A stretch of DNA of 64,000 bases from Microcaldota archaeon (GTDB taxonomy: Archaea; Micrarchaeota; Micrarchaeia; Micrarchaeales; Micrarchaeaceae), in NCBI GenBank assembly GCA_021787495.1, contig JAJYLX010000004.1:1-64000 (forward strand). The letters run 5' to 3'. The position numbers were made by a program, and so were the translations under genes. Positions 1,173-59,040 of the stretch are shown piece by piece. The stretch's first letter is position 1. Each line of letters begins with the position of its first letter. Below the pieces are notes generated by a model. It was not told the origin of the DNA. It searched no databases and saw only the letters and a list, made by a program, of their open reading frames with translations.

Positions 1173-1808
1173 TCAACGCGCGCCCTCAATTATCTCGGCC
1201 GCGCCGCGCACCGCTATGAACGCGAAGAGCGCGTACATGAGCACGTAGCCGTAAACCATTGGGTAGGCGTCGATGTAGACGAGCATCAGATAGCCGAACG
1301 TGGCTATCTTGAGGACGTTTATCAGGCCGCGGCTCGCGTTCGACGTGTAGACCGCCTTGGCGAACCTGGTCCTCATGTGCGAGGATGTGCCCCTAGCACC
1401 CATCATGGCGTCCGCGATTGAGTGTATGAAGATGACGGCCATGACTATGAAGAGCGGGATTATGCTCACAGCGGCGAAGACGACCCACATCGCATACTCG
1501 GCGAACCTGTCCCCCGCGACGTCCATCCTCGGGCCGAAGCCTGACTGCTTGGCCGAGATGCTCTTGTACTTCGAGGCGCGGCTCATCGCGAGCCTGTCCC
1601 TGCCGATTGAGGCCCTGGCATAGGTCAGGAAGCCGAGCCTGTAGCCGCTCGCCTGCCATGCGGCCAGGTAACCGTCGACCGCGTCGAGCGCGGTCGCGAC
1701 CACGAAGAGCAGCACGGTAATCAGGGCATCGTACCTGATGACGATAAGGTAGACCACCAGGGCCACGATAAGCATTCTGAGTATCGTGGCGGCATCGGCT
1801 GCGCGCAT
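1173..1808 (-). CDS. CDP-alcohol phosphotransferase family membrane protein
   Basis: A 211-residue polytopic membrane protein. It has the family's metal-binding residues: D42-x2-D45-G46-x2-A49, then G92-x3-D96-x3-D100 (text GPRMDVAGDR). Enzymes of this family transfer an alcohol phosphate from CDP-alcohol (for example CDP-diacylglycerol or CDP-archaeol type donors) to a second alcohol in phospholipid synthesis. Two things are odd: the usual Arg after the first block (DGxxAR) is Ala, and about 42 residues separate A49 from G92 where the family usually has 8-9. That insert is basic and may form a cytoplasmic loop. It follows the gene at 1822-2466 by 13 bp on the same strand, so they are probably co-transcribed. 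The substrate cannot be told from sequence. Confidence 0.65.
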   Translation of the reverse strand: MRAADAATILRMLIVALVVYLIVIRYDALITVLLFVVATALDAVDGYLAAWQASGYRLGFLTYARASIGRDRLAMSRASKYKSISAKQSGFGPRMDVAGDRFAEYAMWVVFAAVSIIPLFIVMAVIFIHSIADAMMGARGTSSHMRTRFAKAVYTSNASRGLINVLKIATFGYLMLVYIDAYPMVYGYVLMYALFAFIAVRGAAEIIEGAR

Positions 1809-1821
1809 TCATCGCACCGGT

Positions 1822-2466
1822 TCAGACGGAGCCGAGCGTTCCCGGTATGGTACGCCCAATGGCTATTCCGCTGCTGTAGGCCGCTAGCAAGCCGGTCCCA
1901 ACCAGCGACCACGCTATTATGGCCATTATGGCAATCGCCACCAGCAGCGTCACGGCGACGCTGACCCTGGTTGTCCTCTGCTGCACCGAGAGCGTTATGA
2001 CCAGCAGCACGAACTCCCAGACGCCTATGAGCACCGCAAAACCTAAACCCACGAACGGTATATAGAGCAGCCAGAACAGTAGGGTCACCGGAGTTATCGC
2101 GCCAGCCACCGCGGCGAACGTCTTCTCATAAGTGGACTTGAATGTCTTGAGGAAGAATCTACCGACCAGTTGGTAGATCGCGGAGTCAATGAAGATGCCA
2201 ATCGGAATGAACACGAACAGCATTAGCGCTATCAGTAGCAGCCCTATGTAGAGCGACCCGTGTGCGCCCATAAGCAGCGTGATGCTTGTCGCGCTCGCGC
2301 CCGCGAAGTACGCGACAGAGAACACTATCGCGGCAAATATCGCGCTGAGTATGGCGACCGTGTAGTAGAATTTCAGAGACTTCCCTATGCTGTAGTTGCC
2401 CTTCGCGTCCCCGGAAGGGTTGAATAGCATGCTGAACCCTTTCTTCAGCCTGTCCACGAATCCCAT
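1822..2466 (-). CDS. Polytopic membrane protein, Yip1-like
   Basis: A 214-residue protein with a short basic N-terminus containing LKKGFSMLFNPSG and about five hydrophobic segments. The layout, an amphipathic start plus five transmembrane helices, resembles the Yip1/DUF1282 membrane family found across archaea and bacteria, whose role there is unclear. A TATA-like box (AATTTATAAA on the plus strand, 2495-2504) lies about 30 bp upstream of the ATG at 2466, so the message would be nearly leaderless. It heads a two-gene unit with the CDP-alcohol phosphotransferase, hinting at a membrane-lipid context. The family call is tentative. Confidence 0.5.
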   Translation of the reverse strand: MGFVDRLKKGFSMLFNPSGDAKGNYSIGKSLKFYYTVAILSAIFAAIVFSVAYFAGASATSITLLMGAHGSLYIGLLLIALMLFVFIPIGIFIDSAIYQLVGRFFLKTFKSTYEKTFAAVAGAITPVTLLFWLLYIPFVGLGFAVLIGVWEFVLLVITLSVQQRTTRVSVAVTLLVAIAIMAIIAWSLVGTGLLAAYSSGIAIGRTIPGTLGSV

Positions 2467-58291: not shown

Positions 58292-58585
58292 CTACCCCTT
58301 AACGACCCTCTCAAGGTGCCTGACCGGCACGACGAGCGTCTTGGTTGAGTTCATGTTTCTCACCTCGACCACATAGGCCGAGCCCCTTCTCTCTGTGACC
58401 GTGCCGATCTTGCCCCTGTACCTCGGGTGCGGTATGTCCCTGAATGAGCCCTTCGGCACTATCGCGATCTTGTCCCCGACGCTGAACTCCTTGATGAGCG
58501 CATCTATGCTGAGCGACGATGGCTTGTGGTGCCTTGCGAGGTGCCTCGAACGGCCACTGAACAGCCCGCCTGATCTCTTTGGCAT
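58292..58585 (-). CDS. rpl21e: Large-subunit ribosomal protein eL21
   Basis: A 97-residue protein: MPKRSGGLFSGRSRHLARHH start, VGDKIAIVPKGSFRDIPHPRYRGKIGTV in the middle (in parts), VVPVRHLERV at the end. Normal size for archaeal eL21. The frame is open upstream to 58618, but ATG 58585 fits the family. It is divergent from tbp and shares the TATA region at 58621-58629. Confidence 0.93.
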   Translation of the reverse strand: MPKRSGGLFSGRSRHLARHHKPSSLSIDALIKEFSVGDKIAIVPKGSFRDIPHPRYRGKIGTVTERRGSAYVVEVRNMNSTKTLVVPVRHLERVVKG

Positions 58586-58618: not shown

Positions 58619-58630
58619 CGTATTTATAGT
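58619..58630. promoter_or_regulatory. Bidirectional TATA element between eL21 and tbp
   Basis: CGTATTTATAGT reads as a TATA box on both strands. Plus: predicted start near 58652 for ATG 58660. Minus: near 58598 for ATG 58585. Both would be short-leader messages. Confidence 0.6.
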
Positions 58631-58659: not shown

Positions 58660-59010
58660 ATGGCGAAACCGAGCGTTCATGTCGGGTCACCGAGGTACGT
58701 GCACGTCAAGCTGAAGCCCACATACGAGGTCGTCAACCTCGTGGCGAGCGCCGAGCTGAATCTGGAACTCGACCTTTACGGCCTCGCGAAGCTGTCGAGG
58801 GACGTCGACTACGAGCCAGAGCAGTTCCCTGGAGCGATCTTCAAGGTCAATGAACCGAAGCTCAAGGCCGCTCTGCTGCTCTTCAATTCCGGGAAGATAA
58901 TATGCACCGGCGCCAAGACGAAGGAGGACGTGGAGAAGGCCGTCGACCATGCCGTGCAGCTCGTCAAGCGCTACACAAACCAACGCGGCGGCAAGGGCCG
59001 CGGTATGTGA
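58660..59010 (+). CDS. tbp: TBP-like protein with a single TBP repeat
   Basis: A 116-residue protein. Residues 25-108 match one repeat of the TATA-box-binding protein fold: EVVNLVASAELNLELDL, DVDYEPEQFPGAIFKVNEP and LLLFNSGKIICTGAKTKEDV, with the two intercalating Phe positions kept (EQF and LLLF). The normal protein is about 180-190 residues with two such repeats. Here the frame ends with a basic tail (YTNQRGGKGRGM), and the following sequence is not TBP-like in any frame. It could act as a homodimer or be a paralogue of a full TBP elsewhere. Its own TATA lies 30 bp upstream. Confidence 0.85.
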   Translation: MAKPSVHVGSPRYVHVKLKPTYEVVNLVASAELNLELDLYGLAKLSRDVDYEPEQFPGAIFKVNEPKLKAALLLFNSGKIICTGAKTKEDVEKAVDHAVQLVKRYTNQRGGKGRGM

Positions 59011-59027: not shown

Positions 59028-59040
59028 TTTTATTTTTCTA
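59028..59040 (+). terminator. Poly-T terminator after tbp
   Basis: TTTTATTTTTCTA, 18 bp after the tbp stop, fits an archaeal oligo-T terminator. Confidence 0.45.

Follow-up and report, generated by a model that had tools for sequence, protein, structure and literature searches.

Single-lobe TATA-box-binding proteins of Micrarchaeota and the probable assembly of their saddle from two subunits

The single-lobe gene and its surroundings

The window, by which we mean the whole stretch of 64,000 nucleotides analyzed here, contains a gene for a TATA-box-binding protein (TBP) with one lobe, referred to below as paralogue A (Table 1). Its open reading frame starts with the ATG at 58660 and its stop codon ends at 59010. 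When the whole genome was searched in six frames with the TBP family profile PF00352, the lobe was matched on a stop-free stretch at 86.9 bits (5.2e-25), above the curated cut-off of 22.9 bits. This single match was accompanied by no adjoining second TBP repeat in any frame, in agreement with the one-repeat TBP proposed in an earlier note on this DNA. Apart from the lobe, the ORF encodes only a short tail at the N terminus and a basic one at the C terminus, and no enzymatic domain fused to the lobe, as in RNase HIII and the glycosylases, was found in it. With one lobe in 116 residues instead of two in tandem in one chain, paralogue A is therefore not a canonical TBP, though its dimer probably works like one. 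The TATA-like element and the terminator-like poly-T that the earlier note had pointed out are both present.

Table 1. Features of the TBP locus in the window and position of the second single-lobe gene
Feature	Position	Strand	Evidence or remark
Single-lobe TBP gene (paralogue A), 116 aa	58660..59010	+	ORF; PF00352 5.2e-25; PDB TBPs by sequence (8.9e-37) and by fold
TBP lobe of paralogue A (PF00352 positions 2-84 of 85)	58723..58971	+	PF00352 profile match; AF2 model
TATA-like element TATTTATA	58621..58628	+	32-39 bases upstream of the paralogue A ATG; read from the sequence
T-rich stretch after the paralogue A stop, possible terminator	about 59028..59039	+	Sequence
Presumed rpl21e (ribosomal protein eL21), divergent neighbour; context, not part of the TBP	58292..58582	-	Marks the TBP locus by conserved synteny
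Paralogue B, second single-lobe TBP, 118 aa	Source genome (G000), contig C5 (L002), 1477-1833	-	PF00352, 70.5 bits

The divergent neighbour is presumably rpl21e, a name that we gave it on recognising its sequence. TATA-like motifs were found in 61 of the 69 homologous intergenic regions between rpl21e and the TBP gene, against 29.6 expected from single-base shuffling; among the promoters of the window alone, the enrichment was weak (7 of 33, with 3.7 expected). The lobe also carries a two-residue loop insertion at residues 66-70 (PKLKA), which all three species of its genus share and which, in an alignment made by eye, other relatives lack.

The residues by which TBP is expected to work are present in paralogue A. 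The DNA-contact positions, assigned by reference to yeast TBP, include the central Asn (N26) and the intercalating Phe pair (F56 and F75). The stirrup pair for TFB/TFIIB is formed by E52 and E54, and a TFB gene lies on contig C5; the contact of TBP Glu with TFIIB/TFB is described in PMC7221094. N26, V28, F56, F75, E52, and E54 were invariant across 47/47 A-type lobes. Within the genus, 35-44 of the 243 lobe bases of paralogue A differ, with dN of 0.005-0.022 and dS above 1, a saturated value of which only the order of magnitude counts, while dN of paralogue B is 0.016-0.036. These rates indicate that both genes are under purifying selection, which is strong for A, and a dN/dS far below 1 rules out decay of the half-TBP gene. 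The gene had earlier been judged intact and functional-looking, and its low dN/dS, its conservation across the phylum, and its retained contact residues all bear this out.

In the AF2 model of paralogue A, mean pLDDT in blocks of 10 residues was 88-96 for residues 31-110 and 67 for residues 21-30, the first strand, which we take to be located at the junction between lobes. By Foldseek, the modeled lobe resembles one half of solved TBPs, with about 80 columns aligned at 1.3-1.7 Å rmsd to most of them, and 44/44 matches with E ≤0.001 were TBP chains or complexes. The partner factor, TFB, is of the normal kind: it has two cyclin repeats in 15/15 genomes tested and a zinc ribbon in 12/12 of those read. 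In the window's order, the TFBs (L204, L205, L206, L207, L208, L210, and L211) have an extension of ~25-90 residues N-terminal to the zinc ribbon, charged and of low complexity, which is absent from the other Micrarchaeota TFBs read and could be related to the unusual TBP.

Distribution of the half-TBPs and the second paralogue

The source genome is a Micrarchaeota MAG of 852 kb that is 86% complete. A search for another TBP, as the earlier note had advised, yielded in its whole six-frame translation one further PF00352 match, paralogue B, which is again single-lobe, lies outside the window, and is unlinked to paralogue A. No two-lobe TBP was found in this 86% complete genome by that search, nor in four relatives assembled as a single contig (G010, G011, G026, and G032), which have two unlinked half-TBPs and no other TBP type. 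The suggestion that the gene complements a full TBP elsewhere is thus not upheld. One of these relatives is Ca. Micrarchaeum A_DKE (NZ_CP060530.1, a complete chromosome). In the genus of the window, the central Asn (N26), conserved otherwise, is replaced by Cys in paralogue B, so that B might have another role; F56, F75, and E52 are kept everywhere in B, and E54 nearly always. In the B loci checked, rpl21e was not found beside the gene. A and B form separate clades in the lobe tree, B with support of 100/100. Because both fall inside the Micrarchaeota lobe clade, B cannot be taken for a lost N or C half of a canonical TBP, and the tree rules out that A and B together represent those two halves.

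The single-lobe TBP is a lineage-wide form. In a species-level genome collection, a single-lobe ORF was present at 80/80 named loci, these being the top 80 of at least 501, so that this sample leans toward close relatives. In a phylum sample of 116 genomes, all from one class, the single-lobe TBP occurs in 10 of the 18 families having a TBP (f1, f2, f8, f9, f10, f11, f13, f14, f15, and f17); the two-lobe families are f3, f4, f5, f6, f7, f12, f16, and f18, and TBP sequences were read for each of the 18. The half-length gene, which had been proposed as something to look for in related genomes, was thus found throughout the phylum, both other species of the genus included, and on these grounds a sequencing frameshift hiding a second repeat is ruled out.

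The window's family, f1, comprises 37 genomes including the source, and exactly two TBP matches were obtained in 31 of them; all those whose sequences were read are single-lobe. Of the 23 genomes of its sister family, f2, 15 have one single-lobe TBP and no other, among them the single-contig G039 and the 3-contig G037; the remainder are six genomes with A and B, one with a tandem of A lobes, and one without a TBP. The tandem (L118) is at the end of contig C39 of G059 and consists of two A lobes joined in frame by a linker. As its copies are identical at 96/96 bases where both are present, and the contig ends there, it is either a newly formed two-lobe TBP or an artefact of assembly. In some f11 genomes there are three genes for single-lobe TBPs, which fall into two clades (L075, L103, and L104 of G082; L073 and L107 of G087), apparently by a duplication independent of that of A and B. 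A canonical two-lobe TBP (L041) was met in one Micrarchaeota MAG, on the 8 kb contig C43 of G012. It groups in the lobe tree with other archaea and not with Micrarchaeota, and is therefore a likely contaminant, perhaps coming from the host. Matches to haloarchaeal plasmid TBPs were all below 60% identity.

Duplication history of the lobe

Among the 80 named loci, themselves the top 80 of at least 501, rpl21e adjoins the single-lobe TBP in most cases, and it also adjoins the two-lobe TBPs of the two-lobe families listed above. Because this divergent neighbour is common to both, paralogue A is orthologous to the two-lobe TBPs: the single-lobe TBP and the two-lobe TBP of other Micrarchaeota are the same gene. 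The two-lobe proteins of f3-f7, f12, f16, and f18 share with paralogue A the rpl21e locus, the lobe clade, and the FPGAI and FKNGK motifs, but their lobes are fused.

In the lobe tree, all Micrarchaeota lobes, whether single, N, or C, are separated by one branch (99/97.9) from their N and C counterparts in other archaea, against a small reference set of three solved TBPs and one contig TBP. Placing the Micrarchaeota N lobes with the reference N lobes was rejected (AU p 0.0092), as was placing the C lobes with the reference C lobes (AU p 0.0214), and with them the possibility that the two-lobe TBPs of the phylum keep the old duplication. The two lobes of a Micrarchaeota two-lobe TBP are 48-78% identical to each other, vs 42-54% in the reference archaea, and their duplication is apparently younger than the canonical one. 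The simplest reading of the trees would be a single-lobe ancestor in Micrarchaeota followed by re-duplication to a two-lobe TBP, a signal that gene conversion between lobes could imitate. In the RpoB tree, whose backbone is weak, the two-lobe families fall into three groups among the single-lobe ones; two-lobe genomes held as one RpoB clade were not rejected (p 0.255), and the re-duplications may number from one to three.

A resemblance to a hypothetical ancestral TBP had been suggested. This holds for the form of the protein; in origin it may be a relic older than both lobes or come by secondary reduction from an N or a C half, the lobe tree being unrooted between N and C lobes (AU p 0.333 for a clade of the reference N lobes). 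Canonical two-lobe TBPs occur across other archaea and in eukaryotes, and for this reason it is likelier that the phylum lost one lobe than that it never had two. That the one-lobe TBP of Micrarchaeota is older than the duplication that gave all other archaea and eukaryotes their two lobes, and so would be a living homodimeric proto-TBP, with the two-lobe TBP arising independently at least once more in the phylum, seems to us rather improbable.

A probable two-subunit saddle and its counterparts

In all solved complexes of TBP with TATA DNA that are known to us, the box is occupied by two lobes. If each chain has a single lobe, a second chain would have to join it, as A2 in the species with A only and as A:B or A2 in f1. 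We consider it quite likely that the one-lobe form is the general TBP of this organism and that the saddle is built from two single-lobe subunits, A2 where there is one gene and probably A:B in f1; dimerisation, TATA binding, and subunit composition are what we infer for the half-TBPs. The two subunits would join through the face that links both lobes of an ordinary TBP, and the resulting saddle would reach into the TATA-box minor groove with two intercalating Phe pairs and present a Glu-containing stirrup to TFB. In one-gene relatives the saddle would be an A2 homodimer with both stirrups symmetric, and, if A2 is truly symmetric, the direction of transcription would have to come from the contact of TFB with the BRE alone. 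In f1, an A:B heterodimer would restore the asymmetry of the lobes, possibly alongside A2, and since the diverged B is kept almost everywhere in this family, the working saddle there is probably A:B. The homodimeric saddle envisaged in the earlier note is thus likely for the one-gene relatives, whereas in the source genome, because of its second half-TBP, a heterodimer is at least as likely.

The role of B is where other explanations come closest. A and B might be obligate halves of a split TBP, neither of which works alone, like the other split genes of tiny archaea. Both are present together in 31 of the 37 f1 genomes, unlinked and under purifying selection, and in separate clades, but B does not represent the lost half of a canonical TBP, and in the 15 f2 genomes with A only, A alone must suffice, which leaves a strict heterodimer a possibility that we hold to be unlikely. 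Of about the same modest standing is the idea that B is a specialised partner or regulator outside the general saddle and that A2 is the general TBP in the window's species too. The higher dN of B, its N26C replacement in the window's genus, its absence from most f2 genomes, and its position outside the rpl21e locus agree with such a role, but B keeps the DNA and TFB contacts described above and is retained nearly everywhere in f1.

A lobe might instead act as a monomer and occupy only half of a TATA box, the rest of the promoter being gripped by TFB. The two lobes of all solved complexes that we know of speak against this, although DNA glycosylases use single TBP-type domains. A single domain of this type also acts in RNase H3, according to PMC4132731, but fused pairs of lobes at the same locus in relatives suggest that two lobes are needed, and we regard a working monomer as very unlikely. 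Scarcely credible is an artefact, in which a full-length TBP would be hidden by misassembly or contamination: the source is an incomplete MAG, and the related MAG G012 does carry a canonical two-lobe TBP, but this clusters with other archaea, and the half-length gene recurs at the 80 named loci (the best 80 of at least 501) and on single-contig chromosomes, by which a misassembled or hidden full TBP is largely refuted. The two-subunit saddle remains our preferred reading.

TBP is usually regarded as a universal two-lobe, pseudo-symmetric factor that was duplicated before archaea and eukaryotes. Here, a half-TBP is the only TBP in many members of a phylum, in which one-gene, two-gene, and re-fused forms are found at one locus. 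In living cells of Micrarchaeota, among them Ca. Micrarchaeum A_DKE, a strain in culture, both the homodimeric ancestor that has been postulated and the question of why the lobes are asymmetric become testable. Full-text searches of open papers turned up no description of half-TBPs as the TBP of Micrarchaeota; as the searches covered open papers only, priority is uncertain. Brindefalk et al. reportedly described monopartite TBP-domain proteins in some archaea in 2013 (NAR). The earlier note had left it open whether such a form was known, and the methods of PMC7221094 do mention that archaea have single-lobe TBP versions, in line with Brindefalk et al. 2013.

Among known systems, the protein is close to the canonical archaeal TBPs of M. 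jannaschii (2z8u), S. acidocaldarius (1mp9), and P. woesei (1pcz/1ais), with which it shares the sequence and fold of the lobe, the DNA-contacting Phe, Asn, and Val, and the TFB-contacting Glu; these have two fused, diverged lobes (42-54% identical), whereas the window protein has one. The TBP-type domains of RNase HIII and DNA glycosylases are likewise single copies of this fold, but they are fused to enzymes and remote in sequence, while the window protein stands alone and matches TBP itself. The archaeal single-lobe TBPs of PMC7221094 are also stand-alone lobes; as far as we are aware, only their existence is noted there, whereas here the half-TBP is the sole TBP of a lineage, with paralogues, a conserved neighbour, and re-duplication.
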